A DNA stretch of 64,000 nucleotides, taken from the NCBI RefSeq assembly GCF_004366075.1, contig NZ_SODU01000001.1, forward strand, positions 2,811,134 through 2,875,133. The letters are read 5' to 3'. Source of the DNA: Kribbella pratensis (lineage in GTDB: Bacteria > Actinomycetota > Actinomycetes > Propionibacteriales > Kribbellaceae). The notes beneath the pieces are model-generated. The model was given only the letters and a program-made list of their open reading frames with translations, made no database searches and was not told the DNA's origin. Numbering within the stretch: the first letter of the stretch is position 1; each line of letters begins with the position of its first letter. The translations under genes and the position numbers were made by a program. Below are positions 8,364 through 30,145 of the stretch, piece after piece.

Positions 8364-10322
8364 TCAGCCGACGTGGACCCAGGGGCGGTTCGAGCGTTTG
8401 GGTTCGGCGCGGCGGAGGACCTCGCGGGTGACCGGCGGTACGTCGCCCTCGCCGGAGATCAGGTAGCGGAACAGGAAGTAGAACGGGTTGCCCTCGGCCC
8501 AGGCGAAGTAGATGTGCGGCATCACGTGCCAGTCGTCGCGGATCTTCAGCAGCAGCGCGGCGATCGCGTTCGCGACGCTGGGGCTGTCGACGCGCAGGAT
8601 CTTGTAGCCGAACCGTTCCTCGCCGCGCACGTCCAGTTCGGTCTCGAACTGTGAGGCGTCGGTGAGCGTGACCTCGAGGAACAGGATCGGCAGGCCCTCG
8701 GGCAGGTTGCGCACCTCGCGCTGCTCGGCCTCCTTCTCCTGGTACTCCGTCTCGTCCCGGGCGTCCGGCTCGTTCGCGATGATCCGCAGTTCACCGTGCT
8801 TGGCGGCCGAGGCGATCAGCCGGCACGCCTCCTCGTCGAACCGGACCTCGGTGGCGCGCAGCTCCAGCGACCGGGTGGCACGGGAGATCAGCGAGGTCAG
8901 AATGATCGCGACGATGAAGAACGAGGCGATCTGCACGCCGTCCGGCCGCTCGATGATGTTCGCGACGGTCGTGTAGAGCAGCACCATGCTGATCGCGCCG
9001 AACCCGACGGTCTTGGCCTTCTCCCCCTTCCGCCGGGCTGACAGCGTGACCGCGATCGACGCGGACATGATCAGCACCAGTACGCCGGTCGCGTACGCAC
9101 CGCCCTGCGCGTCGACGTCGGCCTTGAACAGGATCGTGATCACGAACGCGATCACCCCGAACACGATCACCAGCGGCCGGGTTGCCCGGGCCCAGTCCGG
9201 GACCATGCCGTAGCGCGGCAGGTAGCGCGGGACGATGTTCAGCAGGCCGGCCATCGCCGACGCCCCGGCGAACCACAGGATCAGGATGGTGCTGATGTCG
9301 TACACCGTCCCGAAGATGTTGCCGAGGTGCTCGTGAGCAAGGTAGGCGAGCGCTCTCCCGCTGGCTTCGCCACCGTCCTTGAACTCGTCCTCGGGGATCA
9401 GCACGATCGTCGTGAAGCTGCTGGTGATCAGGAAACCGCTCATGATCAACGCGGCCGTGGTGAGCAGCTTGCGGGTGTTCCGGATCCGGGCCTCCGGGTG
9501 GGCCGGATCGTCGTCGGCCGCGCCGTCGACCTGTGGCATCACCGCGACGCCGGTCTCGAAGCCTGACAGGCCGAGGGCGAGCTTCGGGAACACGACCAGC
9601 GAGATGCCGATCATCACCCAGATGTTCGAGTGCTCGGTGGTCAGCATGCCGCGCCAGTTCGTGACCAGCTCCGGCGCGGTGATCACGTTCCAGAGCGCGT
9701 TCCCGACGACGACCAGGTTCAGTCCGAGGTACACGACGACCAGGGCGACCGCGATGCCGATCGCCTCGCCGAAGCCGCGCAGGAACACGCCCGCCAGCAG
9801 TGCTAGCAGGACGAGGGTGATGACGACTTCCTTGCCTTCGAACCAGTGCGGCACGTACGGGTTCTCGATCACGTGCGCGGTGGCGTCGGCCGCGGACAGC
9901 GTCATCGTGATGATGAAGTCGGTGGCCATGAAGCCGAGCAGGACCAGGATCGTGAACTTGCCCTTCCAGCGGCCGAGCAGCCGGTCGAGCATCGCGATAG
10001 AGCCCTCCCCGTGCGGGCTCTCGGCCGCCACCCGGCGGTACACCGGCAGGGCGCCCAGCAGCGTCAGGAGGACGAGGATCAAGGTCGCTACGGGTGACAG
10101 CAGCCCGACCGCGGCCGCGGCGATCGCAGGCTGGTAACCGAGCGTCGAGAAGTAGTCGACACCGGTCAGGCACATCACCTTCCACCAGCGGTGGGTCGGG
10201 TGCGGCGCCGGCCGATGCGGGCCAGGGTGCCCGGCCGGACGGTCGTGCAGCAACCAACCGACCACCCGCCCATGGGTAGGCGGCGGCACGCCGACCGTGT
10301 CGCTCTCACGCGTTTCTGTCAC
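8364..10322 (-). CDS. Large APC-family transporter with C-terminal cytoplasmic domain
   Basis: The protein has about 652 residues. After a proline/histidine-rich N-terminus (to ~45) the sequence [20 protein letters not shown] begins a 12-helix APC core. The last ~150 residues (from [14 protein letters not shown]) form a soluble domain ending PWVHVG. It differs clearly from the transporter at 5498, so this is a second subgroup rather than a duplication. Amino acids or inorganic cations are possible substrates. The start is uncertain: GTG 10322 (VTETRES) is used, GTG 10340 is in frame, and neither has a good ribosome site. It appears to be a single-gene unit. Confidence 0.8.
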
Positions 10323-12643: not shown

Positions 12644-12999
12644 ATCGAGTTTGTTGAGTCGCTGGTTCTCGGTGTCACGGCGCTTCTTGATGGCGGCGGC
12701 GGCGTTGCGGGCGGCCTGGTTGAAGGCAGACTGCAGGCGCGATGTCTGTTTGCGGGCTTGGCGGAGAACCTCGCGGGTCTGTTCGAGCTGGTCGTTGAGC
12801 CGCACGAGGTCGGCTTCGAGGTCGCAATGCGATGCTGGTGCGCGTCCAACACCAGTACGGCCTGCTCGCGCTCAGCCTCAGCCGCCACGTAGTCCTCCTC
12901 GGCTTGATCGACCCGTTTACGCTGCGCGTTCCGGCGATCTTGAAGAGTTCTGTCCACGGTCGTGCGACGCTCCCCGGTCCGTCCGGGACGCGGCGCGGT
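12644..12999 (-). repeat. Direct repeat, left copy (3' part of the coiled-coil gene)
   Basis: These ~355 bases align by eye with 18066-18422 in the same orientation, with scattered substitutions. There is one in-frame 3-base insertion in a GGC run near 12700 and one single-base deletion near 12823 (GGTCGCAATGCG against GGTCGGCAGTGCG). Similarity ends just after the segment coding for PGRT(G/A)ERRTTVD. The two copies bracket about 5 kb. Confidence 0.85.
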
Positions 13000-13011
13000 G
13001 TTGGTTGCCAC
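12644..13011 (-). pseudogene. Truncated, frameshifted copy of the coiled-coil protein gene at 18066
   Basis: It reads MATNTAPRPGRTGERRTTVD and on through LQDRRNAQRKRVDQAEEDYV to DAHQHRIA, matching residues ~205-260 of the intact protein. A one-base deletion near 12823 then shifts the frame. The shifted remainder still resembles the intact C-terminus up to NKLD and a stop near 12646. The N-terminal two thirds of the parent are missing. This is a partial duplicate that is very unlikely to give a functional protein. Confidence 0.75.
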
Positions 13012-13105
13012 TCGCCCCGGGCAGGGTACGCAGAGGTTCCTGATGGGGTACCAGAATGCCGGGGCGCGGCATCGGCCGTGCCATGAGGGCGGGGCGGTGG
13101 ACGCG

Positions 13106-14593
13106 ATGATGAATCAGCACGACGGGCCCCACGTCGAGGCGACATCAACGCGGCCAGACTACGATCCGGACGTTGCTCGGGCGCCGGTCGAACAGCAACA
13201 GGTCGAGCAGCATCATGAAGTGCCGCCGTACCAGCACGATGGTGGGGCGCCGGTTCCAGGGGACGGGGCGCCGGCGACTGCCCGGGTCGAGCCGATGGTG
13301 GTGCCGCGCTGGGTGCAGGCGATCCTGATCGCTGCCGCTTTGTTCGCCGTGACGGTCCTGGCGAGGGCAGCAGCCCCGGTGCTGATGGTCTTCTTGATCG
13401 CAGCCGTGGTGGCGCTGATCGTCAACCCGATGGTCACGTTGCTGGAACGGGTCAGAGTCCCGCGCGGGTTGGCGATCGGCGTGGTGTTCGTGGTGTTCTT
13501 CGGCGCTCTGAGCGGCGCCGTGGCGCTGCTGGTGCGGCCGGTCGCCGCACAGGTGTCGGAGTTCCAGGCCGATCTGCCCCGACTCATCGCCTCGGCGAAC
13601 GCATCGCTTGCCAACCTGCAGCAGTGGCTCGACCACAGGCACATCGGCATCCAGCTCAAACGGCCCGGAGAAACCGCGCTCGACACTTTGCAGGCCTCGA
13701 TCCTGCGCGGCTCCGGCGACGTGATCGCGTTCACCCGCGACCTCGTCACGCTGATCGCCGAGGCCGGCTTCATGCTGATCCTGATCCTGGTGATCGCGAT
13801 CTACATGCTCCTGTACGGCCGGCAGATCGGCGACCTGGTACGACGGTGGATGCCTCCCGGCGACGGCAGCGTCGAGGACGACTACCCGACCCGGGTACAG
13901 CGTGCGGTCTCCGGCTACGTCCGCGGACAGTTCACCTTCAGCTTCACCATGGGCCTGTCCGCAGGGGTCGCGCTGTGGCTGTTCGGGGCGTTCGGGATCT
14001 TCCCCGCCGGGAAGACCTACGCGGTGTTCTTCGGCGTGTTCTACGGCCTGATGGAACTGATCCCCTACCTCGGCCCGGTGCTTGGCGCGGCACCCGCGCT
14101 GCTGGTGGCACTGTTCCAGGGCCAGCCGTGGACCGCGCTGTGGCTGCTGATCCTGTTCGTCGTGCTGCAGCAACTCGAAGGCCACATCGTCGCCCCACAG
14201 GTGTTCGGGCACAGCCTGCGGATCAACCCGCTGGTCGTGCTGTTCGCTCTCCTGCTCGGCGGCCACTTGCAAGGCATTATTGGCGCCCTGGTCGCATTGC
14301 CTCTGGCGGCGGTCGCCCGCGAAACCGCGCTCTATCTCCGCCGCCACCTAATGATGGAACCCTGGGGCACCCCTACCGCCGCAGTGCTCCGCGCAAACCC
14401 GCCCGGCAGCTCAGCCGTAACGGCCGCGACACCGCCCACCGCCAAGGCGTCGCCCCTCAGCCTCGCGTGGGCAGCTCGTGCCAGCCGGCAACTGCGGCGC
14501 CGGTTACCCGGCCGAGCAGGCAAATCGGCCGAACAGGAATCTCCAGATGCTGATGCTGGCTCACCACCGATCCCACCTTCCCCGCCGCAGTAG
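13106..14593 (+). CDS. AI-2E family transporter (PerM-like)
   Basis: The protein has 495 residues. A polar N-terminus (to ~70) is followed by VVPRWVQAILIAAALFAVTV and about eight transmembrane helices arranged as in AI-2E/PerM permeases, with the family hallmark region ELIPYLGPVLGAAPALLVAL and QQLEGHIVAPQVFGHSLRIN. The C-terminal ~80 residues are proline/serine-rich and disordered. Members export diverse small molecules or act in sodium/stress tolerance; the substrate is unknown. ATG 13106 has GGTGGA upstream. ATG 13043 with AGAGG is an in-frame alternative. The YihY gene follows after 13 bases, forming a two-gene operon. Confidence 0.88.
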   Translation: MMNQHDGPHVEATSTRPDYDPDVARAPVEQQQVEQHHEVPPYQHDGGAPVPGDGAPATARVEPMVVPRWVQAILIAAALFAVTVLARAAAPVLMVFLIAAVVALIVNPMVTLLERVRVPRGLAIGVVFVVFFGALSGAVALLVRPVAAQVSEFQADLPRLIASANASLANLQQWLDHRHIGIQLKRPGETALDTLQASILRGSGDVIAFTRDLVTLIAEAGFMLILILVIAIYMLLYGRQIGDLVRRWMPPGDGSVEDDYPTRVQRAVSGYVRGQFTFSFTMGLSAGVALWLFGAFGIFPAGKTYAVFFGVFYGLMELIPYLGPVLGAAPALLVALFQGQPWTALWLLILFVVLQQLEGHIVAPQVFGHSLRINPLVVLFALLLGGHLQGIIGALVALPLAAVARETALYLRRHLMMEPWGTPTAAVLRANPPGSSAVTAATPPTAKASPLSLAWAARASRQLRRRLPGRAGKSAEQESPDADAGSPPIPPSPPQ

Positions 14594-14606
14594 GAACCCT
14601 GGCACG

Positions 14607-15800
14607 ATGCACCCGGTGACTTCGGTACGGCGGTTCGCCGCGCACCAGCGTGGCCGTACAGCGCGCGGCGCGCACCGCATCCTCCAGACACTGCGGCTGT
14701 TCTGGTCTCGCCGGACCCTGTGGAGCCAGCCGCCGGTGGCGTGGACACGCCGGGCCGCGTCTGCTACATACGATCTCACCCGGCGGGCCGCGGTGAGCGC
14801 CTGGCGGCACCGCGTCCTGGGCTTGGCGGCGGAGACCGGGTTCTGGACGCTGCTGTCGATGCCGCCGCTGCTGCTGTGCCTGCTCGGCCTGGTGGGCTAC
14901 CTGGCTACGCCGTTCAGCCCCGCCCTGGTGCCAGCCGTCGAACAGCAACTGCTCGACGTCGCCGATCGCATCGTCACCCGAGACGCCGTCACGACCCTGA
15001 TCCAGCCAGTCGTGCACAACGTGCTGACCATCGGCCGTGCGGACGTCGCCTCGCTCGGCTTCGTGATTGCGCTGTTCTCCGGGTCGACCGCGATGAGCAG
15101 CTACGTCAACGCTCTCGCCCTCGCCTACGGCCAACGCAGCCACCGCGGCGCCGTGCACAGCCGGCTACTTGCAATCGGCCTCTACCTGGCCGCACTGATC
15201 GTCGGGGCGCTGCTGCTGCCGCTGCTGGTGGCTGGGCCACAACTCCTGCTGAAGATCACCCCCACCGGCACCCACGACCTCATGCAGGCCGCCCTCACTG
15301 TGGCCTACTGGCCCGTCATCGCCGCCCTGTCCGTCCTGCTCCTCACCACCATGTACCACCTCGCCATACCGACCCGCACGCGCTGGCGAGCACACCTGCC
15401 CGGCGCGATGGTCGCGATGTCGCTGTGGCTGATCGGCAGCATCGCACTGCGCGCCTACGTCACCTTCGCATTCCGCACCGTCAGCGTCTACGGACCGGTC
15501 GCCACCCCGATCGCCGCATTGCTGTTCTTCTACCTGTCAGCGCTCGCCGTACTCGTCGGCGCCGAGATCAACGCACAACGCCGGCCACCCGCGGCGCCGA
15601 CCACCGCGACACAGCCGCAATCAGGCACCAGCCCCCGACCACCGGGGCCGTCGATCCGACGACGGTCATCGAGATCTCCAAACGAGCGACCCAGCGAGGG
15701 CCGCCCTTCTCCAAGAGGTCACACCACGTATGACAACCAACCCGTGGTCCGGCGATCCGAGGCCGGGCCGCCCGCGGCCAGCGAGGGGGACGAGCGCTAA
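14607..15800 (+). CDS. YihY/BrkB family membrane protein
   Basis: The protein has 397 residues. After a basic cytoplasmic N-terminus, six hydrophobic segments carry the YihY pattern: FWTLLSMPPLLLCLLGLVGY, VASLGFVIALFSGSTAMSSY, YGQRSHRGAVHSRLLAIGLY and LLFFYLSALAVLVGAEINAQ. A long charged, proline-rich tail follows. The start at ATG 14607 has AGGAA upstream and lies 13 bases after the AI-2E gene. YihY proteins were once called RNase BN but are inner-membrane proteins of uncertain role. Co-transcription with the permease suggests an envelope function. Confidence 0.88.
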   Translation: MHPVTSVRRFAAHQRGRTARGAHRILQTLRLFWSRRTLWSQPPVAWTRRAASATYDLTRRAAVSAWRHRVLGLAAETGFWTLLSMPPLLLCLLGLVGYLATPFSPALVPAVEQQLLDVADRIVTRDAVTTLIQPVVHNVLTIGRADVASLGFVIALFSGSTAMSSYVNALALAYGQRSHRGAVHSRLLAIGLYLAALIVGALLLPLLVAGPQLLLKITPTGTHDLMQAALTVAYWPVIAALSVLLLTTMYHLAIPTRTRWRAHLPGAMVAMSLWLIGSIALRAYVTFAFRTVSVYGPVATPIAALLFFYLSALAVLVGAEINAQRRPPAAPTTATQPQSGTSPRPPGPSIRRRSSRSPNERPSEGRPSPRGHTTYDNQPVVRRSEAGPPAASEGDER

Positions 15801-16194
15801 GCGCGGGCGGCTCCGAAATCAAGGGTGCTGTCTGCTTAACGCCCTTGATTGGCATCGTTGTCTTAAGCAACCCGTTCCCGACAGATCGAAGCACCAAACC
15901 TCACCGAAAGGCTGCGCATTACGCCGGACGAGGATCACGCGGTAGCGGCATCCTCGTCTACGACGACCGCAAGCATCGGGGAATGAGGTACCCCACCAGT
16001 GCAGGTACTGCGCTCCACGCTCGGATCCAGCCAGATTGCGGCACCGCTCGACGGATCCGCGGCGGTCCAGGCGGCAGGGCACCGCAGCGGCACGCGGAAC
16101 CCCGCTCTCCTGACCTGGAACTCAGCGCCGCGATTTGATGCCGGGCGTGCAGGGCACCTGGTCACCAGCCACCCGGCCCGAGGAGGTAACTGTC
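15801..16194. other. Intergenic region with no supported gene
   Basis: Several overlapping short frames exist, but none has protein-like composition. A good ribosome site (GAGGAGG, 16179-16185) belongs to the CBS-like remnant that follows. The mixed composition suggests decayed DNA. Confidence 0.4.
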
Positions 16195-16359
16195 ATGGCG
16201 ACCACTGGGCGGGACCTGATGACACCGAGCGCCACCTCCGGCGCCGCCGGAACCTCCCGACCGGCGGCCGTGCAACTCGCTGCCGCCAGGTCTGTCAGCG
16301 GGAGGAATCCTGAACGAGCGCGTCGATCGGGTGACTACTCGATAAAGCCGGCATCGTGA
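16195..16359 (+). pseudogene. Remnant of a CBS-domain protein (54 codons)
   Basis: ATG 16195 with GAGGAGG nine bases upstream opens MATTGRDLMTPSATSGAAGT. This is the typical first strand and helix of bacterial CBS-pair proteins (ARDLMTP...). After about 30 residues the resemblance fades into a low-complexity tail (SVSGRNPERARR) and a stop at 16357. The second half of the first CBS motif and the whole second motif are missing. Intact ribosome site and N-terminus with a lost body point to a truncated gene. A genuine small peptide cannot be excluded. Confidence 0.45.
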
Positions 16360-16736
16360 TCTGCGGCCGCGATCTGGTCATGGAACCGTCGGTGGACCCA
16401 ATGACGCTGGCCCAGCAGGGTCACCTGGCTCCAGCGGCCGGATGCCGGGCCGAGCCGTGTGTGGCGAGGCATGGCACCCAGCAGATGTTGCGGGCTCGCC
16501 CCTCCGGAGAGTCTGCTGCTCTCCAGCACATAGATGGCCTCGGGCGTGATCGCGACACAGCGGTACTTGATCCAGAACATCGTGAGCCCGGTGAGATAGG
16601 TGATCACAAAGAAGAGGAAACTAGGTGCAGCCTGACAGATGAGGGCCTGGCGAATCTCGCTGCCCTCGGGAAGGAACGGCGCGGAACGTTCCACCAGGTC
16701 TTTCCGTGGTTCGACCCGGCTCGATCGACCAGTCAT
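16335..16736 (-). CDS. Small membrane protein with PH-like C-terminal part (133 aa)
   Basis: The order is a polar N-terminus with FLPEGSEIRQALICQ, one or two hydrophobic segments (APSFLFFVITYLTGLTMFWI), then strands YRCVAITPEAIYVLESS and a basic C-terminal part. This is the pattern of small actinobacterial membrane proteins with a bacterial PH-like domain. ATG 16736 has GAAGGG about nine bases upstream; a longer in-frame start at 16787 is less likely. It overlaps the CBS remnant by 25 bases on the other strand. The function is unknown. Confidence 0.6.
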   Translation of the reverse strand: MTGRSSRVEPRKDLVERSAPFLPEGSEIRQALICQAAPSFLFFVITYLTGLTMFWIKYRCVAITPEAIYVLESSRLSGGASPQHLLGAMPRHTRLGPASGRWSQVTLLGQRHWVHRRFHDQIAAADHDAGFIE

Positions 16737-17005
16737 CGGCACGTTCCCTTCCCGGGTCCGGCACCACGGTCCAACGCCATGATCCAACGCAAAGGGGTCG
16801 CTGATGCGGGACCGCGGGCACGCCCTCAGACAGAGGCAACTGGCTACTCGACGAGTTCGTCATCTGGTCCACCCCTTGCAAGCGCGGCCCGGCCGTATCA
16901 GGTCTGAAGTTGGCGACCGATCCGTGCTTCGGGCATCGGCTGCGGGGTACCGCAGGAGTGCGGCAACACGGCCGGAATCGCCTTGCGTGAGGAAGGAAGA
17001 GGATC

Positions 17006-17371
17006 ATGAGCATGTTCGATCCGTGGAACTACCGGAAGGACTCCGGCTACAGCGAGGGCACCGACATCACCGGCTACAAGATCGCGGCGGTCGACGGGGA
17101 CATCGGCAAGGTTGACGAAGCGACGTACGACGTCGGCGCGGCCTCGATCGTGGTCGACACCGGGCCCTGGATCCTCGGGCGCAAGGTTCTGCTGCCCGCG
17201 GGCGTCGTACAGCGCGTCGACACCGAGGACGAGAAGGTCTACGTCGACCGGACGAAGGATCAGATCAAGGACTCCCCGGAGTACGACCCCAGCACCGGCG
17301 ACCACGACGATCGGGAATACCGCGAACGCCTAGGCAACTACTACGGCGAGTACTACGACCGCGGATTGTGA
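17006..17371 (+). CDS. PRC-barrel domain protein
   Basis: The protein has 121 residues. A PRC-barrel core runs from about 20 to 85 (TDITGYKIAAVDGDIGKVDE, then VVDTGPWILGRKVLLPAGVV, QRVDTEDEKVYVDRTKDQIK). An acidic/tyrosine-rich tail ends NYYGEYYDRGL. Such proteins are small, soluble and widespread in actinobacterial stress loci, where they act as adaptor-like modules. ATG 17006 has AGGAAGAGGA directly upstream. The following small gene begins 75 bases later in the same direction. Confidence 0.88.
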   Translation: MSMFDPWNYRKDSGYSEGTDITGYKIAAVDGDIGKVDEATYDVGAASIVVDTGPWILGRKVLLPAGVVQRVDTEDEKVYVDRTKDQIKDSPEYDPSTGDHDDREYRERLGNYYGEYYDRGL

Positions 17372-17446
17372 CCCCGATCCACAGGCGCAAGGAGCTGCTC
17401 GAGGCGTTTCGCGGATGGGTACCGAATGGCTCGGAGAGGTACCGCC

Positions 17447-17701
17447 ATGAGCGAATCTCACACTGCACAGCCGGCTCCTCTGAAGCCGGGCCCCTGCACC
17501 GTCGGCAGACTGCCGCTACCCAGCCACGTCCTGGTCTGGGCGGACGATTGCTGGCGACGAGCATGGCTGATCGGCAGATCTCACGAAGACGTCGGCTGGA
17601 TGGGACTTGTCCAGTACGACGACCATCGCGGCAACGAGGTCACCCGACAGATGCCTGCCGAACTGATCGCAGCGGCCGACTGCCGGCCCCGCGACGACTG
17701 A
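17447..17701 (+). CDS. Hypothetical protein (84 aa)
   Basis: The protein starts MSESHTAQPAP. Its core is compact and tryptophan-rich (VLVWADDCWRRAWLIGRSHE, GWMGLVQYDD), suggesting a small beta-rich domain. The composition and the ribosome site GGAGAGG before ATG 17447 support a real gene. It follows the PRC-barrel gene in the same direction. No family is recognised. Confidence 0.6.
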   Translation: MSESHTAQPAPLKPGPCTVGRLPLPSHVLVWADDCWRRAWLIGRSHEDVGWMGLVQYDDHRGNEVTRQMPAELIAAADCRPRDD

Positions 17702-18065
17702 CATCCTGCTGCCGCGAGAAGTCACACATTCAGGCCATCCCGGCTAGTAGGCGTCGGCCTTGCATATGTCCGATCGGCGTCACCAATTGACGGACCAGCG
17801 CCTAGAAGAGGGCCTTCGATGATCATGTCGCCTAGGAGGCGACATGGCAGGCGTTCATGCCCACCTTCTATCGATGCGTTGGAGGCCTAACTGCGGATGG
17901 TCTGAGCGACGCCAGATCCCCTTTGCCTGCCGGCGCCTGGCGACACCCGCCTACGTCAGCAACACAAGGCACATCCTCACACCTCACCTCAAGACGCCGC
18001 GCGCTGAAGAACTCAGACAACCAGCCGGGGCGGCGCTGTGTGCCGCGACGGCAAGGTGCTACTGG
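17702..18065. other. Intergenic region next to the right repeat copy
   Basis: No gene is supported. The notable element is the palindrome at 17824-17846. The region ends at the stop of the coiled-coil gene, which is also the edge of the 350-base direct repeat. Confidence 0.45.
17824..17846. repeat. Perfect 10-3-10 palindrome
   Basis: CATGTCGCCT, then AGG, then AGGCGACATG form a perfect inverted repeat. No T-run follows on either side, so it is not a classical terminator. A protein-binding dyad or a mobile-element end are alternatives. Confidence 0.6.
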
Positions 18066-18422
18066 TCAACCGTCGAGCTTGTTGAGTCGTTGGTTCTCGG
18101 TGTCACGGCGCTTCTTGATGGCGGCGGCGTTGCGGGCGGCCTGGTTGAAGGCAGACTGCAGGCGCGATGTCTGTTTGCGGACTTGGCGCAATGTCTCGCG
18201 AGTCTGTTCGAGCTGATCGTTGAGTCGCACGAGGTCGGCTTCGAGGTCGGCAGTGCGATGCTGGTGCGCGTCCAACACCCGTTCGGCCTGCTCGCGCTCA
18301 GCCTCAGCCGCCGCGTAGTCCTCCTCGGCTTGATCGACCCGTTTACGCTGCGCGTTCCGGCGATCTTGAAGAGTTCTGTCCACGGTCGTGCGACGCTCCG
18401 CGGTCCGGCCAGGACGCGACGT
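18066..18422 (-). repeat. Direct repeat, right copy (inside the intact gene)
   Basis: This segment codes for the C-terminal third of the coiled-coil protein and matches 12644-12999 in the same orientation. It is probably the parent copy because its reading frame is intact. Confidence 0.85.
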
Positions 18423-18986
18423 GATCCTCCTTGATTCCGCTCTGTCAGGTGGGTTCGAGCGTCTGACGACCCGGGGCCGAACGGCGGCGAGCTGGGCCGG
18501 GTCGCCGCTCTCGTCGACGATGCCGAACCCGACGTGGCGCAGCCCGCTGGTCAACTGTCCGGTCCGCAGCAGTTGCGCAGCGCCGGAGTCGACCAGCGCG
18601 GCATCGAGGGTCTCGATCAAACGCTCAGCGGTCTGCGCGGACACACGTCGCCCGCCGGCCGCTCGTTCTCGGGCCGTGCGTACGAGTCCGCTCACGAGCT
18701 CATGCCGCAGACGGGTGAGTTCGCGTCGCCGTGCAGCGTCGGCCGAGAGGTACGTCTGGCGAAGCTCCTCCCCCAGTTCGGTCAGTGCGTGGATGCCATC
18801 TGGGTCGGTGCGGACAAGTTGGTTGACCAGCCATGCTGTGATCGTAGGTTTCCGCAGCGCCATGATTGCCGAAGCGGTCCTCTCGGCACCGGCCGCGCGC
18901 GCGGACATTGCGAACTGATTGCGGGCCGCGGTGAACTGCTCGGGCTCCAACCCGTAGAGCTCCACCGCAGCCTCGACCGTGTCCAC
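18066..18986 (-). CDS. Actinobacterial coiled-coil protein, unknown function
   Basis: The protein has 306 residues. The N-terminal domain (about 1-150) starts ELYGLEPEQFTAARNQFAMS and contains ASAIMALRKPTITAWLVNQL, a pattern seen in a common uncharacterised actinobacterial family. From about residue 190 the sequence becomes a long charged coiled coil (RTLQDRRNAQRKRVDQAEED and onwards) up to KLDG at the stop. GTG 18986 is chosen because the preceding codons of the longer frame (MPVPHPCGHGGW) are not typical; ATG 19022 is the alternative. The last third is duplicated at 12644-12999. Confidence 0.75.
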   Translation of the reverse strand: MDTVEAAVELYGLEPEQFTAARNQFAMSARAAGAERTASAIMALRKPTITAWLVNQLVRTDPDGIHALTELGEELRQTYLSADAARRRELTRLRHELVSGLVRTARERAAGGRRVSAQTAERLIETLDAALVDSGAAQLLRTGQLTSGLRHVGFGIVDESGDPAQLAAVRPRVVRRSNPPDRAESRRITSRPGRTAERRTTVDRTLQDRRNAQRKRVDQAEEDYAAAEAEREQAERVLDAHQHRTADLEADLVRLNDQLEQTRETLRQVRKQTSRLQSAFNQAARNAAAIKKRRDTENQRLNKLDG

Positions 18987-19339
18987 CCATCCACCATGCC
19001 CACATGGATGCGGCACGGGCAACGTCGCCCGCGTCGCCGAGCCACAACGCCACTCGCAGTGCGCCCGCGCTCACGGACATGGACTCGGATCGAATACTGG
19101 TTGTATCGGGCAACGAGCCCGGTGTGTTCACCGCCGCGCCTGGGCCGAAGCAAGAAGAGCACCCAACGAACGCTCTTGAACGGCCACGGAACCACGCAGA
19201 CCTCGCTGGTCGATGGGTCGCTAACCCGCCTGGGCGGGAGCCGAGGCGCGCCCCGAGCAACAGGTCTCAGCACCCACGCCAAGCAGAACGTGCACGCGCT
19301 CGACGGCGGCCCCGTACCGTCCCCGAGCACAGCGAACCG
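18987..19339. other. Intergenic region with no supported gene
   Basis: Short frames overlap on both strands but none looks translated. No clear promoter or terminator was seen. Confidence 0.4.
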
Positions 19340-20812: not shown

Positions 20813-21940
20813 CTCAGCCCCCACGCTCCGCTGCCGACCACCGTCTCTGTCAACGGCAACTGGCCCCGGCAACCTCCGACCTCCTCAGCCTGCCGTATGG
20901 ATAATGTACTGGCAACAGCCATCACAATCGGCCACTGCTGAGGCGAACGCTCCTTCACCAGCCCCTGGCGTAGCGCCGACCAGGGATATCGAGCCGACCC
21001 AGCTCAGCCACCGCATAGAGTCAACTCAGTCCACGTTCAGCAGCTCAGCGTGGGAACAAACAGGCATCGATTCAGTGCCCGGACTCAAGACCGACTGAAC
21101 CGGAGTGGTCTACACACGCTTGGCGAAGGTGTACGTCGCGGGCTACAGCACGGCGAAGAGTGCCAGCAGGTTGTTACGGCGGCGGCCTTCGCGGTGATCG
21201 CGTGCACCGGGCGGGCCTCCGTCCGGTTGGAGACGCAGCGTCTGGGCCCGGCCTGGTGGGCGGCCTGCGCCGCCGCTGGCGTCAACCCCGACCACTACCG
21301 GTTCTGGGTGCACGAGGGCCCGGAGGCGACCGCCGGCTCAACGGTCGCAGAGACGGAAGGGGGCGTCGAACCCCGTCGCAGCAGTTCGCCCTTCCTAAAG
21401 ACTCCGCCCCCCGGCGCCGCTGACGCCGGGGCAGAACCGCCAGGCCGTTCTTGCGCGGCTGTGTTCCACGAGGCCGAGCGTGGGCCGGTATGGTTTGGTG
21501 GCCGATCCCGGACTCCGCCGAGGAGGGCATCGTCGGCTGGACGGAGGCGGGGGTATCCGTCGCGAACAGTGCGGCCGCGGCGCTGCTGGGCCCTGGGCGC
21601 CGACCAACTGGCCGGGCAGGGGTTCCTCAAGGGGCACAGTTGCCTGGTCCCGACTGCGACCAGTCCCGCAGGCGGCGGATCCGGTCGCCTCGGCGTTGGC
21701 CGATGTCGAGGTGTACGCGCTCACTGACGCGATCTGCCGGCCGCCCAGGGTGTCGAGTTCACGGCCTTCTGGCCGGGCGGCAGCGAGTGCGAGTTGTATC
21801 TGAAGACTGTCGGCGCTTGGTGGAATCGTGTTGTACGTCCGGGGCACGACCAAGTTGGCCCGGAGCCTGGCCGATCCCGAAAGTCCCAGTCGCTGACGCG
21901 TTGAGCTTGGTCAATCGTGCGTCGGCTGGGAGGTCTTCTG
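20813..21940. other. Degenerate 1.1-kb stretch upstream of the integrase
   Basis: There is no intact gene. Protein-like fragments occur in different plus-strand frames: LGPAWWAACAAAGVNPDHYR then FWVHEG near 21246-21318, LGADQLAGQGFLKGHSCL near 21595-21650, and GVEFTAFWPGGSECELYLKT then VGAWWNRVV in a frame that ends at 21904. This frame-hopping suggests a frameshifted gene of a mobile element. The integrase ribosome site GGGAGG is at 21928-21933. The first 250 bases hold nothing visible. Confidence 0.35.
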
Positions 21941-23272
21941 GTGGCGTTTGTGAAGGATTTGTGGACTACGGCGGTTGAGCAGGCTGATGGGTCGGTCAAG
22001 CGGGAGCGGAACGCGAAGCGGTGGGGGCGGGGAAAGCGGTGGCTGGCGGTTTGGATCGGGCCTGACGGGAGGGAGAAGTCGCGGACGTTCGACACCAAGG
22101 TCAGGGCTAGTCGGTTTGCGTCCGAGATGGAGACGGACGTCGCCCGCGGTGAGTACGTCGACCCGCAGGCCGGTACGGTGCGGTTCGAGGTTGTCGCGAA
22201 GAGTTGGCTGGGGTCGCGGGTTGTCGATCCGACGACGGAGATCCGCCATGAGACAGCGTGGCGGCTGCATGTGCTTCCGGTGTTCGGCAAGCGACAGGTC
22301 AAGAGCATCAAGCCGTCGGAGGTGGCGAACTGGCTTGCCGACCTCGAGCGGCGAAAGGGACCGGCGACGGCGCGGACGGCGTTCGTTGTGCTGCACGGGA
22401 CCCTTGAGCTGGCGGTGGACGACGACACGATCAAACGAAATCCGGCCAAGGCCGGGGTGGTCACGGTACCGGTCCCGAAGAACCGGAGGATCGTCACCTG
22501 GAGCGATGCGACTGTCGAGCGCATTGTTGAGTGCCACCCGGTGCAGTATCGGGCGATTCCGACTATCGGCGCGGCGGCCGGCTTGCGTCAGGGAGAGCTC
22601 TTCGGGCTCGCCAAGGACGACATCGACTTCGACGCGATGGTCATCCATGTGCGACGGCAGGTGAAGAAGATCGGGAAGTACTTCGTGTTCGCGCTTCCGA
22701 AGAACGACTTGGAGCGCACCGTGCCGATGTCGGAGGGAGCCGCGCTGACTCTCATGCGGCACATGGAGTCCTTCGAACCGCGGCCATACAGCCTGCCGTG
22801 GGAGCGGCCGAACGGCGAGCCGCATGAGGTCAAGATCCTCTTCCGATGGCGCAACGATCGGCACATTCCCGCACGTAGCTACGACAAGGCCATGTGGCAT
22901 CCGGCTCTGGCAGCAGCCGGTGTGATCCCACAGCCGACCAGGAACGCGCGAGGAGCTCTCCAGTACGTCACCAACCGCGACACCGGGATGCACGCCCTGC
23001 GCCATTACTATGCAAGCGTCGCGCTGGCCGACGGAGTCAACATCAAGGAACTCGCCGAGTACCTCGGTCACGGCGACCCCGGCTTCACGCTGCGCCTCTA
23101 TACCCACATGCTGCCGTCGTCGCATGACCGAGCCCGCAAGGCGATCGACTCGCGACTCGGGCGGATCTTCTCGGTGGCGGCTCACGGAACAGCGACGGAA
23201 CAGGCCGCTAGAGCACACCTGGTAGAACTCGCCGAGCAACAGCTCGACGCAGGTCCCGAATTGGGGCTCTGA
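21941..23272 (+). CDS. Tyrosine site-specific recombinase (integrase)
   Basis: The protein has 443 residues. An N-terminal arm-type domain (KRWLAVWIGPDGREKSRTFD) and a SAM-like core-binding domain (about 75-170) precede the catalytic domain. Visible catalytic residues are the arginine in AAGLRQGELFGL, the HxxR box in GMHALRHYYASVAL, the histidine of YLGHGDP, and the nucleophilic tyrosine in LRLYTHMLPSS. GTG 21941 follows GGGAGG by seven bases; an in-frame GTG at 21917 precedes that site. This type serves phages and actinobacterial integrative elements. No tRNA or attachment repeat was found beside it. Confidence 0.9.
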   Translation: MAFVKDLWTTAVEQADGSVKRERNAKRWGRGKRWLAVWIGPDGREKSRTFDTKVRASRFASEMETDVARGEYVDPQAGTVRFEVVAKSWLGSRVVDPTTEIRHETAWRLHVLPVFGKRQVKSIKPSEVANWLADLERRKGPATARTAFVVLHGTLELAVDDDTIKRNPAKAGVVTVPVPKNRRIVTWSDATVERIVECHPVQYRAIPTIGAAAGLRQGELFGLAKDDIDFDAMVIHVRRQVKKIGKYFVFALPKNDLERTVPMSEGAALTLMRHMESFEPRPYSLPWERPNGEPHEVKILFRWRNDRHIPARSYDKAMWHPALAAAGVIPQPTRNARGALQYVTNRDTGMHALRHYYASVALADGVNIKELAEYLGHGDPGFTLRLYTHMLPSSHDRARKAIDSRLGRIFSVAAHGTATEQAARAHLVELAEQQLDAGPELGL

Positions 23273-23345
23273 CCTGCGGAAACGGCGCCTGCGGTCACGG
23301 CATCGAGTGGGCCGACCGGCCCCGTGGTAGCGCCGGGCAGCGTAC

Positions 23346-23492
23346 ATGTTCCAGTTCTACGCCGAGAACCACGACGACTTCAGCGGCGACCGCGACCTGG
23401 CGAAGGTCCGCGAGCTGAACCCGGACCTGCAGTCCTTCACGACCTGGCTCGAGAACCACCGCGACGAGCTCAAAGCCACGCAATCTGACTGA
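23346..23492 (+). pseudogene. 3' fragment of an NmrA-like NAD(P)-binding protein gene
   Basis: The 48 codons MFQFYAENHDDFSGDRDLAK then VRELNPDLQSFTTWLENHRD resemble the C-terminal end of NmrA/HSCARG-type reductases, which close with a 'FYAEH..D...DRD...V..LNP.LQ' segment. A stop (23328-23330) precedes it in the same frame and the Rossmann fold is missing. The body of the gene is gone, and the fragment begins 73 bases after the integrase stop. This suggests the host gene was broken by integration or later deletion. A free-standing small protein is the alternative. Confidence 0.5.
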
Positions 23493-23622: not shown

Positions 23623-23868
23623 GTGGCGGAGCTGATCGCCGAATCATCGGCCCCGGCAGTCGCTCTGGCACAGCTTCAGCAGCTGGTCGCGGACCGGACG
23701 GCTGATGCGCCCGGCGAAGATCCCGTGATCCGCGAGCTGGTGATGCAGCTGATGCCGGGCCGGGCCGGCAACCTGGCCGCGTTGCCTTCGCACCTCGGGA
23801 TCTCGGAGCTGACCCAGCGCCACCCGCGGAAGCATGCCTACCTGAGGACCCACGGGTCCTCGGGATAG
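23623..23868 (+). CDS. Possible small ORF upstream of the ATP-grasp gene (81 aa)
   Basis: From GTG 23623 the frame reads a mostly helical sequence (ELIAESSAPAVALAQLQQLV, GNLAALPSHLGISELTQRHP, RKHAYLRTHG). Third-position GC is high, but there is no good ribosome site for the GTG and the frame continues upstream without a clear start. It ends 76 bases before the ligase start, in the same direction. It could be the 3' end of a lost gene or a small partner of the ATP-grasp cluster. No family is recognised. Confidence 0.35.
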   Translation: MAELIAESSAPAVALAQLQQLVADRTADAPGEDPVIRELVMQLMPGRAGNLAALPSHLGISELTQRHPRKHAYLRTHGSSG

Positions 23869-23944
23869 GGAGGATTTCCGATGCCCGCGCCCACCTCAGA
23901 CCAGCAGATTCGGTGGTCAGCAAGTCGTGAGAGAGGAAGCCACG

Positions 23945-25231
23945 GTGTCCGACCACGTCGTCTCCACCAGCCAACGGTCCTCGGCGGTCACCGCCGCACG
24001 GCCTCGCGTCCTGGTCATCGGCGGCAAGCTCGACCATGTGCGCAAGGCCCGCGAGCTTGGCCTGGACGTGGTGCACGTCCAGTTCCCCGACGAGTACGAC
24101 CGCGGTCACTGGCCGTACGTCGACCAGGCGCTGCTGCTCGACTACGGCGACGTCGACCGGCTGCTGCCGCTGGTCCGCGCCCTGCACGAGGCGTACCCGT
24201 TCCAGGCGGCGGTGTCGCTGTACGAGCTCGGGCTGTTGCCGGCGGCACGAGTCAACGAGGCGCTCGGCCTCGGCGGCGAGTCCGTCGCCACTGTGGAATT
24301 GCTGCTGGACAAGTGGCGGATGCGCCAGCAGTTGGCCGCCAGTGGCGTGAGCCCGGTAGCCGCTGCGGTCGGCCGCTCCGCGCGGGACATCCAGGAGTTC
24401 GTCGAGGCGCACGGACTGCCGGTCATCGTGAAGCCGATCCGCGAATCGGGCAGCCTGGGAGTCTTCCGCATCCGCGACCAGGACGAGGTGGACTCCGTCA
24501 CCGAGCGGTTCCGGGCCCTCGACGACGGACATTGGACCGCGAAGGACCTGTCCTTCGCCGACTCGTTCAGCGAGTTCCTCATCGAGGAGTACCTGGACGG
24601 CGCGGAGATCAGCGTGGAGACCCTGAGCTTCGACGGCCGGCATGTTGTCGTCGCGCTGACCGACAAGGAGACCGGTCCGGGGTTCGTCGAGCTCGGACAC
24701 TCGCAGCCCAGCGACTGCTCGCCCGAGACCTTGGACGAGGTCAGGCAGTTGGTGACGGACTTCCTCGACGCAGTGGGGCTGCGCAACGGTGCAGCGCACA
24801 CCGAGGTCAAGCTGACCTCGCGTGGCCCGCGGATCGTCGAGTCGCACAACCGCATCGGCGGCGACAGGATCAACGACCTGACCGAGATCGCCTACGGCGT
24901 CGACATGGAGCGGTACGCGCTCGGCGCCGGGTTCGACGTCGTGGAGCCGCTGACCGCGGCACCCCGACCTCGCGGCGGAGCAGCCATCCGATTCCTCACT
25001 CCGGAGCCGGGACGGATCGTGGAGGTGACCGGACTCGACGCCGTCCGAGCCGACCCGGCGTACGTCGACCTTCAGCTGAAGGTGGGACCTGGCGACGACG
25101 TACCGCCCCTGACCTGGAACGAGGACAAGGTCGGTCACATCCTCGCCCGCGGCGCCACTCGCACCGAAGCGGTCGCCCACGCCAGGCGGCTGGCCGCGGC
25201 GGTCGACATACGCACAGAGCCGCTTGCATGA
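23945..25231 (+). CDS. ATP-grasp carboxylate-amine ligase
   Basis: The protein has 428 residues. The N-terminal pre-ATP-grasp domain begins ARPRVLVIGGKLDHVRKARE. The ATP-grasp part contains GLPVIVKPIRESGSLGVFRI (lysine and glycine loop), FLIEEYLDGAEISVETLSFD, and the metal-binding end HTEVKLTSRGPRIVESHNRI GG (E and N ligands). The overall plan resembles L-amino-acid ligases of the BacD type, which join two amino acids with ATP. GTG 23945 has GAGGAAG upstream. It overlaps the MFS gene by four bases, so product formation and export are probably coupled. The actual substrates are unknown. Confidence 0.85.
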   Translation: MSDHVVSTSQRSSAVTAARPRVLVIGGKLDHVRKARELGLDVVHVQFPDEYDRGHWPYVDQALLLDYGDVDRLLPLVRALHEAYPFQAAVSLYELGLLPAARVNEALGLGGESVATVELLLDKWRMRQQLAASGVSPVAAAVGRSARDIQEFVEAHGLPVIVKPIRESGSLGVFRIRDQDEVDSVTERFRALDDGHWTAKDLSFADSFSEFLIEEYLDGAEISVETLSFDGRHVVVALTDKETGPGFVELGHSQPSDCSPETLDEVRQLVTDFLDAVGLRNGAAHTEVKLTSRGPRIVESHNRIGGDRINDLTEIAYGVDMERYALGAGFDVVEPLTAAPRPRGGAAIRFLTPEPGRIVEVTGLDAVRADPAYVDLQLKVGPGDDVPPLTWNEDKVGHILARGATRTEAVAHARRLAAAVDIRTEPLA

Positions 25232-26439
25232 ATACGGATCAGCGGGGCGTCGACGAGTCCCGGTTCCGTGACGCGCTCCGAGGCCTGCCGGCGCGGGTCT
25301 GGATCATCAGTCTCGGCATCCTGGTCAACCGGGTCGGCAACTTCCTGCCCGTGTTCATCGTGCTCTACCTGACCGAGCGCGGCTATTCCGCCGGTGCCGC
25401 GGGTCTCGTGCTGGGCGTGGCCGGTCTGGGCAACGTTCTCGGCAGCGCGTTCGGTGGTTACCTCGCCGACCGGATCGGCCGGCGCTGGACCATCGTGCTG
25501 TCCGCCGTGACCACCGCCGGGCTGACCGCGGTCGTGCCGTTCCTCGGACCGTTCCCGATCATCACCGCAGTGGTCGGGCTCATCGGCGTGACGTCGCAGG
25601 TCTACCGGCCGGCCGCGGCCGCGGCGCTGCTCGACTCCGTGAGGACGAGCCAGCAACGACTAGCCGCGTTCGCCGTGTTCCGGTTCGCGATGAACGTCGG
25701 CGCTGCCCTGGGCGGCGTCATCGGCGGTGTGCTGGCCAGCACCTCATATGTGGAGCTCTTCGTCGGCAATGCCGTCGCGTGTCTGCTCTTCGGGGTCGTC
25801 GTGGCAGTGTTGCTGCGGGACGCACCTCGGCAGCAGACCGATCCGGACGACGCGGACTCGCCGGCAGACACGGCGGTTGGATACCGGCGGGCGCTCGCCG
25901 ACCGCCGGCTGGTGCGATTCCTGCTGATGACCGTGGTCGGGGAGTTCGTCTACATCCAGTCGACCGTCGGCCTGCCCCTGCACGTCACCGAAGTGGGCCT
26001 GAGCGCGCGCGACTTCGGTCTGCTCATCGGGTTGAACGGTCTGGTGGTGCTGGCGCTGGAGTTGCCCATCACCGGCGCGGTCTCCCGGTACCGACCGGAG
26101 TACGTCCTTGCCATCGGCAACCTGCTCATCGGTGCCGGCCTCGCGCTGACCGGCTTGATGACGGGGATGGTGCTGCTTTCGGTCACGGTGCTGATCTGGA
26201 CCCTCGGCGAGATGATGTCCAGCTCGGTCGCCGCGGCGTACCTGGGAAGCCTGGCGCCGCCACGGCTCGTCGGCCGCTATCAGGGCCTGTACGGCGTCGC
26301 GTACACGGCCGGCACGGGCGCCGGCCCCCTCATCGGCGGAGCGCTCTACGCGATCGGTCCCTGGACACTGTGGGCCGTGGTCGCCGCAGCCGGCCTCCTG
26401 GCCGCGCAACTCTGCCTCCCCCGCCGCGGCGCTGCTTGA
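25228..26439 (+). CDS. MFS exporter coupled to the ATP-grasp ligase
   Basis: The protein has 403 residues with twelve predicted transmembrane helices and a longer central loop (about 195-220). MFS signature A is visible as GGYLADRIGRRW between helices 2 and 3, and RPAAAAALLDSV follows helix 4. It begins inside the ligase stop (ATGA). A ligase-exporter pair of this kind is known for the dipeptide antibiotic bacilysin (BacD/BacE), so the protein may export the ligase product and give self-protection. This role is inferred from context. Confidence 0.85.
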   Translation: MNTDQRGVDESRFRDALRGLPARVWIISLGILVNRVGNFLPVFIVLYLTERGYSAGAAGLVLGVAGLGNVLGSAFGGYLADRIGRRWTIVLSAVTTAGLTAVVPFLGPFPIITAVVGLIGVTSQVYRPAAAAALLDSVRTSQQRLAAFAVFRFAMNVGAALGGVIGGVLASTSYVELFVGNAVACLLFGVVVAVLLRDAPRQQTDPDDADSPADTAVGYRRALADRRLVRFLLMTVVGEFVYIQSTVGLPLHVTEVGLSARDFGLLIGLNGLVVLALELPITGAVSRYRPEYVLAIGNLLIGAGLALTGLMTGMVLLSVTVLIWTLGEMMSSSVAAAYLGSLAPPRLVGRYQGLYGVAYTAGTGAGPLIGGALYAIGPWTLWAVVAAAGLLAAQLCLPRRGAA

Positions 26440-26452
26440 CCGACCAGGTCCA

Positions 26453-27337
26453 TCACGACTCCAAAATGCGGTCGAGGGTTCGGCGGCCCATTTTGCTCAT
26501 CGTCGGGTTGGTCTCGACGTAGTACCAGACGACGCCCATCGCCTGTTCGAACGCCCAGGCCTTGCCGCGCTCCCACTCCAGATCGTCAGAGCCCAGCGCC
26601 CGTCGGAGCACTTCCCGCGGGCCTGGCTCTAGCAGGTGCCAGGCACTGACCAGATCCAGCGCGGGGTCGGCCGGGCCGAAGCCGCCGGTGTCGAGTACGC
26701 CGCTGAGCCGGTCTCCCGCGACCAGTACGTTGCCGGGAATCAAGTCACCATGGCTCATCACGTCCGGAGCCGTGCGTGGCAACTCCCGAAAATGGCTCCA
26801 CACCTGGCGCAGCCGAGGTACGTCGAGCAGCCCCTTGCTCTCCTCGAAGCACTTCGCCATCCAGTCGTCGTGGTGAGCGAGAACGCCGCCACGACCTTCG
26901 CCGCTGAACAGCCGCCCCCGCGTCTCCACGTCCCGCAGGGCCGCGATGAAGGCCGCAAGGTCCTCGGCAAAAGCGTCCGACGTACTCGGGTCGGCATCGA
27001 AGGCGATCGTTCCCGGCAGCCAGGTCTGGACCGCCCACGGCATGGGGTAATCCGCTCCAGGTTGTCCGAAGGCGACGGGTTCCGGAACGGGGAAGCGAGA
27101 CACCTGCGCCAGCTCCGCGCTCGCCTCGGCTTCCTGTTCCAGAACCGCCAACGCCTCGGCAGCATCGACCAGACGCAATGGGAAACGCGCAGAGAGGTCG
27201 TTCCCGATGCGAAAGATGGCGTTGACCGTCCCGGTCGAGGGCACGGGTCGAATCGCCTCGCCCTTCCACTGAGGGAACTGTTGCTGGATCAAGGACGCAA
27301 CGGTTTCGGTCGTCACGTCCACCTGGTCGTCGTGCAC
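26453..27337 (-). CDS. Aminoglycoside/macrolide phosphotransferase-like kinase
   Basis: The protein has 294 residues with an APH fold. The N-lobe contains STGTVNAIFRIGNDLSARFP, the catalytic loop is MSHGDLIPGNVLV (Asp base and Asn), and the metal site is VLDTGGFGPADPALDLV, where the Asp is conserved. Members phosphorylate aminoglycosides, macrolides or small hydroxyl compounds; the sequence does not identify the substrate. It converges on the MFS exporter with a 13-base gap, so it is not part of that operon. It is transcribed divergently from the next MFS gene. Confidence 0.85.
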   Translation of the reverse strand: MHDDQVDVTTETVASLIQQQFPQWKGEAIRPVPSTGTVNAIFRIGNDLSARFPLRLVDAAEALAVLEQEAEASAELAQVSRFPVPEPVAFGQPGADYPMPWAVQTWLPGTIAFDADPSTSDAFAEDLAAFIAALRDVETRGRLFSGEGRGGVLAHHDDWMAKCFEESKGLLDVPRLRQVWSHFRELPRTAPDVMSHGDLIPGNVLVAGDRLSGVLDTGGFGPADPALDLVSAWHLLEPGPREVLRRALGSDDLEWERGKAWAFEQAMGVVWYYVETNPTMSKMGRRTLDRILES

Positions 27338-27414
27338 AGGCCCATACCTACACGACAGTCACCACAAACAGCACTCATTTTGACTCGGCAGGTAGTGGGT
27401 ACTGGCGCGGGACG

Positions 27415-28641
27415 ATGAGCGAAGCTGCGGCCCGCCCTGGGGCATCGGTACGAAACGGGCACGTTCTGCGGACCGTCGTGCCTGGTGTCGCGATGATCGC
27501 GGTCACTTTCGGGTTCGCACGCTACGGATACGGGCTCCTGTTGCCACAGATGCAGGCCGACCTGGGCATCACACCGCGCGCCGCGGGGCTGACCGCTTCG
27601 GCCGGGTACGCGTCGTACCTGATCGCGAATCTTTCCGTGATCTGGATGACCGTCAGGCTGGGACCGCGATGGCCGATCGGACTCGCGGCGGCACTCGCGG
27701 CCATCGGGATGACGATCGTCGCGGCAGCCGGCACCTCGTTGGCCGCACAGGTCGGCGTGGTCGTCGCCGGCACCGCGGCCGGTCTGGCATTCCCGCCGTA
27801 CGCCGACATCGTGGATCAGCACGTGCCTGCGGCTCGGCGTGCCCTTGTGTGGTCGACGATCAGTTCAGGAACCGGTTGGGGAGTCGCGATCGGAGGACCG
27901 GTCGCGATCGGCTTGGGAGAGGACTGGCGGCTCGCCTGGCTGGTGTTCGTCGTCCTGGCGGTCGGCGCGGGAGTCCTCGCGACGGTGTGCGCACCATCGC
28001 GAGGTCGAGACTCGCGCCGGCCCCAGGTGCCACAGCTGAGTTGGACCTGGTTCGTCTGCCCGAAGTCCCGCCCCTTGCTGCTCTCCTCCGTCCTCATCGG
28101 GGCGGGCAGCGCTGTGTGGTGGACCTTCAGTGTCGAGGCCCTGCACACAGCCGGGCTTGCAGCCGGAGAAGCCAAGAGTGCCTACGCGGTGTGCGGTGCC
28201 GCCAGCCTCCTCGCCTCGCTCAGCGGATCGGTCGTCGACCGCATCGGCCTGCGGAACAGCTACCTCGGCGCATGCGCACTACTCACCGCAGCACTGGTCC
28301 TGATCGCGGTCGGAGCCCGCCAGTTCATCATCGCCCTGCTGGCCGCGGCGTTGTTCGGTGCTTTCTACAGTGCGGTGGTCGCGACCCAGGGCATCTGGAG
28401 TGCCCACGTCTTCGCCTCACGCCCCTCAGCCGGGCTCGCCGCAGTCAACACCGCACTCACCATCGGCACCATCGCCGGTCCAGCCGCGGCGGGACTCCTG
28501 ATCAACCGATCCGGCTACCCCGCCACGCTGCTCGCGGCGGCCTCAGTGGTCGCGATCTCCGTCGTCTTCTGCCCGCCATCGGCACGCCGCCGCGAGATCC
28601 TGGCAGCGCACCGATGCCGAGCCACACCGATCCGCGACTGA
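27415..28641 (+). CDS. MFS transporter, YbfB/YjiJ-like
   Basis: The protein has 408 residues and twelve transmembrane segments. Helix 1 contains VTFGFARYGYGLLLPQMQAD, the hallmark of the YbfB/YjiJ group. A conserved second-half repeat begins PLLLSSVLIGAGSAVWWTFS. The substrate of this group is not well known. ATG 27415 lies 77 bases from the divergent phosphotransferase start. The gene stands alone, and a 24-base gap separates it from the convergent membrane protein gene. Confidence 0.85.
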   Translation: MSEAAARPGASVRNGHVLRTVVPGVAMIAVTFGFARYGYGLLLPQMQADLGITPRAAGLTASAGYASYLIANLSVIWMTVRLGPRWPIGLAAALAAIGMTIVAAAGTSLAAQVGVVVAGTAAGLAFPPYADIVDQHVPAARRALVWSTISSGTGWGVAIGGPVAIGLGEDWRLAWLVFVVLAVGAGVLATVCAPSRGRDSRRPQVPQLSWTWFVCPKSRPLLLSSVLIGAGSAVWWTFSVEALHTAGLAAGEAKSAYAVCGAASLLASLSGSVVDRIGLRNSYLGACALLTAALVLIAVGARQFIIALLAAALFGAFYSAVVATQGIWSAHVFASRPSAGLAAVNTALTIGTIAGPAAAGLLINRSGYPATLLAAASVVAISVVFCPPSARRREILAAHRCRATPIRD

Positions 28642-28665
28642 CAACCAGCAGGTGCCCTACGATCG

Positions 28666-30047: not shown

Positions 30048-30072
30048 CCGATCTCCCATCCTCGATACCGGG

Positions 30073-30104: not shown

Positions 30105-30145
30105 ATCCGCAGGTGGAACCTCGCACACGCGCTAGGGTCACAACC

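Follow-up and report, generated by a model that had tools for sequence, protein, structure and literature searches.

A repeated coiled-coil gene end within a probable 46-kb integrase-type island at an NmrA-family gene of Kribbella pratensis

A direct repeat of about 350 bases flanks a 5-kb block of AI-2E, YihY/BrkB and PRC-barrel genes in Kribbella pratensis, one copy forming the 3′ third of a coiled-coil gene (the CC gene), and the locus raises the question of whether the block is a unit that moves through this repeat or a part of something larger. We present here an analysis of the 64,000-nucleotide stretch that contains it (the window; RefSeq assembly GCF_004366075.1, contig NZ_SODU01000001.1, forward-strand positions 2,811,134 to 2,875,133). 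A sequence-only reading had proposed that the block entered, or was duplicated, by recombination at the CC gene. The window was compared with 38 genomes of the genus, in which G000 is the genome of K. pratensis itself, and with loci fetched from them (L-numbers); negative coordinates denote positions to the left of the window start. The repeat and the block probably lie within a 46-kb island that a tyrosine integrase inserted at the 3′ end of an NmrA-family gene.

The following features outline the candidate island and its surroundings.

1 to 23374, no strand: right half of the predicted 46,085-bp integrated island, whose left end lies outside the window (G000:C1:2788392, position -22741)
21917 to 23272, plus strand: tyrosine integrase (PF00589, PF22022, PF14659)
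23182 to 23203, plus strand: arm motif of the right end, made up of two ACGGARCAG half repeats within the 3′ end of the integrase gene; its exact second copy lies 229 bp in from the left end
23344 to 23374, plus strand: 31-bp core of the right attachment site, matching its counterpart in the intact NmrA gene exactly
23344 to 23489, plus strand: orphan 3′ end of an NmrA-family gene, opening with the 31-bp core
23862 to 26430, plus strand: ATP-grasp ligase and MFS-type transporter (MFS by our own reading), accessory; the stretch lies past the right attachment site and ahead of the syntenic flank
26466 to 30109, no strand: flank lying directly 3′ of NmrA in G005, 92% identical over 3,644 bases and starting 32 bases after the NmrA match

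An exact 31-bp repeat at 23344 and -22741, 46,085 bp apart, provides direct-repeat cores at both ends. The left core lies inside an intact NmrA gene (PF05368) about 46 kb to the left of the right core, and 72 bp separate the integrase end from the right core, which places a recombinase gene at one end of the island. A 22-base motif, TCACGGAACAGCGACGGAACAG, is found 229 bases inside the left core and again 162 bases before the right core, where it overlaps the integrase 3′ end. From this arrangement we propose that the integrase would have inserted the island by recombination at the short core in the 3′ end of the NmrA-family gene, with the two arm motifs, one inside each end, as putative arm-binding sites, and that the integrase could also cut the island out in circular form. 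A 15-base exact repeat, TGACCTGCGGAAACG, was also observed at the integrase stop codon (23270) and at -22092, 649 bases inside the left core. A tRNA gene was considered as the integration target and rejected; ARAGORN gives only a tRNA-Thr(agt) in the window (25100-25191), probably a false call, on the strand opposite to the ligase gene that it overlaps.

The arm motif recurs across the genus. A degenerate form gave 11 matches in 21 NmrA-site loci (396 kb) and 3 elsewhere in 1.06 Mb of partly overlapping loci, 2 of the 3 being the island's own two sites refetched. Across whole genomes, the form TCACGGARCAGNNACGGARCAG occurs at 32 exact sites in 19 of the 38, and the reversed control at none. 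Placements were read by hand from coordinates, for 20 of the 32 sites: 12 sites are in, or at most 100 bp from, an integrase 3′ end or remnant (for the one in G036, the alignment of the integrase stops 81 bp short of the site), and 5 follow an intact NmrA gene at a distance of less than 120 bp. Three sites lie 5 to 26 kb from an integrase or NmrA (G010:C1:1708792, G028, and G002:C1:3839288). Behind the motif in G015:C321 come the opening bases of the NmrA core, without an NmrA end.

The NmrA site itself shows a recurrent pattern in relatives. An NmrA match is present in 37 of the 38 genomes, and 3′-end pieces stand alone in 7 (G000, G001, G010, G011, G014, G015, and G019). By eye, the pieces start at the same place within two bases in 6 of the 7, and in G014 about 15 bases later; an integrase or integrase remnant lies beside the piece in 5 (G000, G010, G011, G015, and G001). 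Over 24 kb, G010 repeats this layout: its intact NmrA gene stands 24 kb leftward of the piece, and an integrase with 74% identity to that of the island precedes the piece by about 70 bp. On the left side of NmrA, synteny holds in all 15 of the relatives' NmrA loci fetched, and G005 supplies a site without an insert, in which NmrA runs straight into the flank found at 26466 in the window.

Several observations weigh against this account. The direct junction of NmrA and flank occurs in only 1 of the 15 relatives' loci (G005); the 26466 flank lies 2.8 kb further on in G022 and 3.8 kb further on in G025, G029 has flank from further right, and in the remaining NmrA loci the 26466 flank was not found within the fetched stretch. 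The right core and the syntenic flank are not adjacent, the ligase-MFS stretch standing between them, and G005 is without about 3 kb beyond the core-to-core island. A single simple integration should have left the native NmrA end as the right-side orphan. The intact NmrA 3′ end after the core resembles that of the nearest species (81 to 87%); the orphan piece is 63 to 68% identical to the intact end and 67 to 68% to the nearest species, and is nearer to G014 and to the piece in G001 (85 to 89%). Gene order inside the island also differs from that of the related region of G019; common to that region and the window are the AI2E-YihY pair (80% at the DNA level), a 4.3-kb permease stretch (87%), and the integrase (72%), arranged differently. 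The mismatch of the NmrA ends and the ligase-MFS stretch suggest that insertions may have been stacked at one NmrA site, with loss of an end. A stronger form of this idea, that the 46-kb stretch is several elements piled at the NmrA site and that its two cores stem from different integrations, draws on the partial second integrase at -8249 to -7557 (PF00589), the foreign type of the orphan NmrA piece, an extra integrase fragment to the right of the NmrA site in G010, and the ligase-MFS stretch beyond the right core. We regard it as possible but on balance doubtful: the stretch's own two arm motifs are identical over 22 bp in an exact form that none of the rest of the 32 sites has, and the 31-bp cores are identical, as expected for the two ends of one element. 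The ligase is found at E 1e-60 in 6 of the 38 genomes, its own included, and the ligase-MFS stretch is conserved in 5 fetched loci that otherwise share little with the window; that stretch was tried as core flank and rejected, since the ligase is present in so few genomes.

On the reading of one integrase-inserted island, the cores enclose the 5-kb block, the CC gene, an amino-acid permease (PF13520) with a large membrane-protein-like neighbour lacking a Pfam match, and, to the left of the window, a 709-residue protein with GmrSD N-terminal and RAMA domains (L095:788-2914) that would represent restriction or defence cargo. The cargo is a mixture of membrane, stress and restriction genes. A Pfam scan of 32 island proteins (31 of 42 chosen open reading frames plus one) gave no replication or DNA-translocation (FtsK/TraB-like) genes, and no transfer or phage structural genes were recognised among them; the island seems to rely on other means for its transfer. 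A second partial gene duplication was observed in the island, 411 bp at 99.3% identity (-5032 to -4622 and -4359 to -3949; L095:9101-9511 and 9774-10184), and is part of a gene for a secreted-protein-like product of 449 residues.

Nearer the repeat, the block and its borders comprise the following.

12645 to 12996, minus strand: copy A, a partial and frameshifted duplicate of the CC coiled-coil segment
12962 to 14593, plus strand: AI-2E family membrane protein (PF01594, E 6e-61), likely start about 13106
14478 to 15800, plus strand: YihY/BrkB family membrane protein (PF03631, E 2e-45), paired with the AI-2E gene
17006 to 17371, plus strand: PRC-barrel protein (PF05239), with a match of at least 68% identity in 11 of the 38 genomes, its own included, one of them partial
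18066 to 19022, minus strand: CC gene, a helical N-terminal part plus a coiled coil; an accessory form in the genus, dispersed and often broken
18073 to 18421, minus strand: copy B, the 3′ third of the CC gene in its intact form, with a single long helix predicted

Pfam confirmed the AI-2E, YihY and PRC-barrel genes that the sequence-only reading had named in the block, and gave no match at E 0.01 for the open reading frame at 16335-16787 that it had called PH-like; the 91-residue frame at 17426-17701 likewise had no match at E 0.01. The genes of the block are mostly found apart in relatives. AI2E relatives of at least 60% identity occur in 4 of the 38 genomes, its own included, with only pieces in G031 and G027; K. 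pratensis holds a second AI2E copy (G000:C1:726 kb), and the AI2E-YihY pair is kept there and in G019. Neither CC nor PRC lies within about 10 kb of any of the four AI2E loci outside the window. Only 1 of the 13 PRC loci fetched has a CC gene (L069, G019:C24, 5.4 kb away) and none has AI2E, 2 of the 13 holding relatives of only 41 to 45%. The whole block together was not seen in any relative among the 38 genomes. Since AI2E-YihY, PRC and CC are mostly apart in relatives, the block is, as far as gene neighbourhoods indicate, neighbouring cargo and no unit of its own. It also lacks features of a composite transposon flanked by insertion sequences: no transposase family was found among the block proteins scanned with Pfam, and among the 25 listed of 73 inverted repeats none pairs the block ends.

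An AI2E search of genome contigs returned one locus, in Kribbella sp. VKM Ac-2568. The search of plasmids gave 11 records, each with less than 60% identity and with less than 80% of the query covered. In G027 an AI2E fragment lies about 1.6 kb behind the NmrA gene (L129:5081-5476), a hint that AI2E cargo may once have been at the same NmrA site in another species.

The repeat itself was borne out as described, two copies in the same orientation with one of them frameshifted. Copies A and B share 329 identities over 348 aligned bases (94.5%), with 19 mismatches and two internal indels, the longest exact runs being 86 and 61 bp. The BLAST alignment spans 352 columns at 93.5%, and BLAST of one region against the other gave E 8e-126. 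When both copies are masked, the best other match of A in the window, among the matches listed, is of 22 bases at E 0.005, which excludes a chance origin of the repeat. In the match to the CC protein of its own genome, copy A is broken into two pieces in different frames. The homology is limited on one side a few bases from the CC stop codon and on the other near codon 200, close to the start of the sole long confident helix in a single-sequence AlphaFold2 model of the CC protein; copy A is thus, on alignment, the coiled-coil part of the CC gene without its front. Beyond the repeat ends, the A side and the B side do not align with each other.

A and B are each other's closest relatives at 93%, the next matches longer than 200 bases being at most 76%; they are sisters, and the case that would have refuted the sequence-only reading, each copy with deep orthologues of its own, was not observed. 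Against eight related copies from five genomes, 4 derived changes inside the repeat were counted in A and 6 to 8 in B, the rest being ambiguous (script totals of 13, 16, and 20 take in a poorly aligning stretch before the repeat). Mismatches at codon positions 1, 2, and 3 number 3, 7, and 9. Because both copies carry derived changes, the duplication is judged to be old and the copies not to have been homogenised lately. The sequence shows the repeat to be a decayed partial copy of a cargo gene, an ordinary case of gene decay.

The wider record of the CC gene is in keeping with such decay. A match is present in all 38 genomes. By our reading of the table, every genome has a distant form (34 to 39% identity), and a closer form (at least 45% over most of its length) occurs in 17 of the 38, its own included, with an additional incomplete one in G007. 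The closer copies stand at differing places, and their only recurring neighbours are two short open reading frame families, at three loci each. Pieces covering differing parts of the gene are found in G007, G016, G019, G020, and G033 (one in G019 is weak, E 7.5e-6), so that a broken extra copy is nothing unusual. G009 and G020 each hold several copies, and some are near transposase-like genes by our reading of translations. No family in Pfam or NCBIfam matched the CC protein above the cut-off. Its model has a helix at residues 198 to 308 of 309, with predicted local distance difference test (pLDDT) values there mostly above 90, a mean pLDDT of 62.9 and a predicted template-modelling score of 0.28 overall, and is confident in the coiled coil only. 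Viral contigs held no relative, and plasmids gave 10 records, covering at most 54% of the query and all below 60% identity.

How copy A came to lie beside the AI2E gene is the weakest step of the explanation. We favour, at slightly less than even confidence, an origin from a second CC gene copy, of which A would be the remnant, cut on its 5′ side where the AI2E-YihY pair begins; the end of homology at the stop codon is the reason for this preference. Homology between the flank of A or of B and the relatives' CC loci was sought, and none was found next to the copies. Since the DNA adjoining either copy is shared by no relative, this origin is tentative. As the main alternative, template switching or end joining in a local copying event could have pasted the CC 3′ end beside AI2E in error, with no relation to the arrival of the genes. 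The 411-bp duplication in the same island lends this some weight; local repeats of the kind (at least 200 bp and 88% identity, within 12 kb) are rare, being found at 3 loci in 1.42 Mb of partly overlapping fetched loci, one of which is the 411-bp case in L095. A random breakpoint is unlikely to fall a few bases from the CC stop codon, and we consider such an error rather unlikely.

In a fuller form of the sequence-only reading, the 5.4-kb block would be a unit that entered as a circle by single crossover at the CC gene and that may leave, as a circle or a deletion, through the 350-bp repeats. The geometry of truncated copy, block and full gene fits a single crossover, and the direct orientation, the 94.5% identity and the exact runs of 86 and 61 bp suffice for recombination in principle, given the identity and run lengths generally known to support homologous recombination. 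The dispersal of the block genes (0 of 4 AI2E loci with CC or PRC, 1 of 13 PRC loci with CC) and the lack of a relative with the block among the 38 genomes speak against entry as a unit, and since A and B have drifted on both sides, there has been no recent exchange between them. Entry or duplication of the block by recombination at the CC gene is therefore very improbable, and its loss through the repeat, possible in principle, is unsupported. The idea that the block lies in acquired DNA and that the CC gene end was duplicated found support, the block being inside the 46-kb stretch bounded by the NmrA cores.

The matches observed between the repeat flanks and CC loci were a relative of the 91-residue open reading frame in L073, together with short translated matches, and a 109-base match at 73% identity (21225-21333) in a G020 locus, on the opposite side of the CC gene there.

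Returning to the island as inserted by its integrase, the 46-kb stretch resembles tyrosine-recombinase islands and prophages at gene 3′ ends in its integrase at one end, its direct-repeat cores, an intact gene on one side and an orphan 3′ end on the other, and a relative without the insert. It differs in its target, usually a tRNA gene and here a protein-coding NmrA-family gene, and in the transfer and phage structural genes not recognised among the proteins scanned. On the features tested, the stretch is, by sequence comparison, an integrase-type genomic island. It is also like pSAM2-like actinomycete integrative and conjugative elements (AICEs) in having a tyrosine integrase beside an attachment site in an actinobacterium. 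Excerpts of Ghinet et al. 2011 (PMC3218068) place AICEs with a tyrosine integrase in tRNA 3′ ends, except for the pSLS sub-family; the search for AICEs there was for segments that combine genes for recombination, translocation and replication. Translocation and replication genes belong to AICEs but were not found among the 32 Kribbella island proteins scanned, and AICE status is therefore not shown. Searches of phages and plasmids with the integrase gave many records, all below 60% identity.

Sister integrases in the same genus appear to use another target. In G005, G010:C1, G013, G016, G019:C10, G028, and G031, a single other gene end recurs behind the motif or its looser form, 79 to 91% alike over 420 bases at the seven places; in G028 the integrase lies 5.4 kb from the motif. 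By our reading of the translation, the gene in G019 is an intact acyl-CoA dehydrogenase gene, 481 codons long and convergent with the sister integrase (L089:2223-5030). These integrases are 64 to 70% identical to that of the island and carry the arm motif or a looser form in their 3′ ends, but differ from it in the integrase tail and the neighbouring gene. The looser pattern was not found in 6 of 13 further related integrase loci (G025, G007, G012, G003, G011:C5, and G029). The sister integrase in G019 has the AI2E-YihY pair and a window-like permease stretch within 20 kb. The 15-base repeat TGACCTGCGGAAACG was also observed behind 6 of the 7 sister motif sites.

We tentatively suggest, with more reserve than assurance, a genus-wide family of integrase islands with a shared two-part arm motif, switched targets (NmrA and acyl-CoA dehydrogenase 3′ ends), no transfer genes of their own, and a shared pool of envelope and stress cassettes (AI2E-YihY, amino-acid permease, PRC, and CC) passed between sites, with partial gene copies as scars. 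No description of an NmrA-site island family of Kribbella was found in the literature searched: no paper linked NmrA with an integration site, and those on Kribbella genomic islands or integrative and conjugative elements dealt, by title and opening of the abstract, with other subjects. Exact ends, an integrase, arm motifs and an insert-free site are now given for this candidate family in a genus of soil actinomycetes, which makes excision and integration directly testable, and the integrase system of the island might serve as an integration tool for Kribbella. A tandem 879-base direct repeat, 100% identical, was also observed in G019 (L125:2828-4580).

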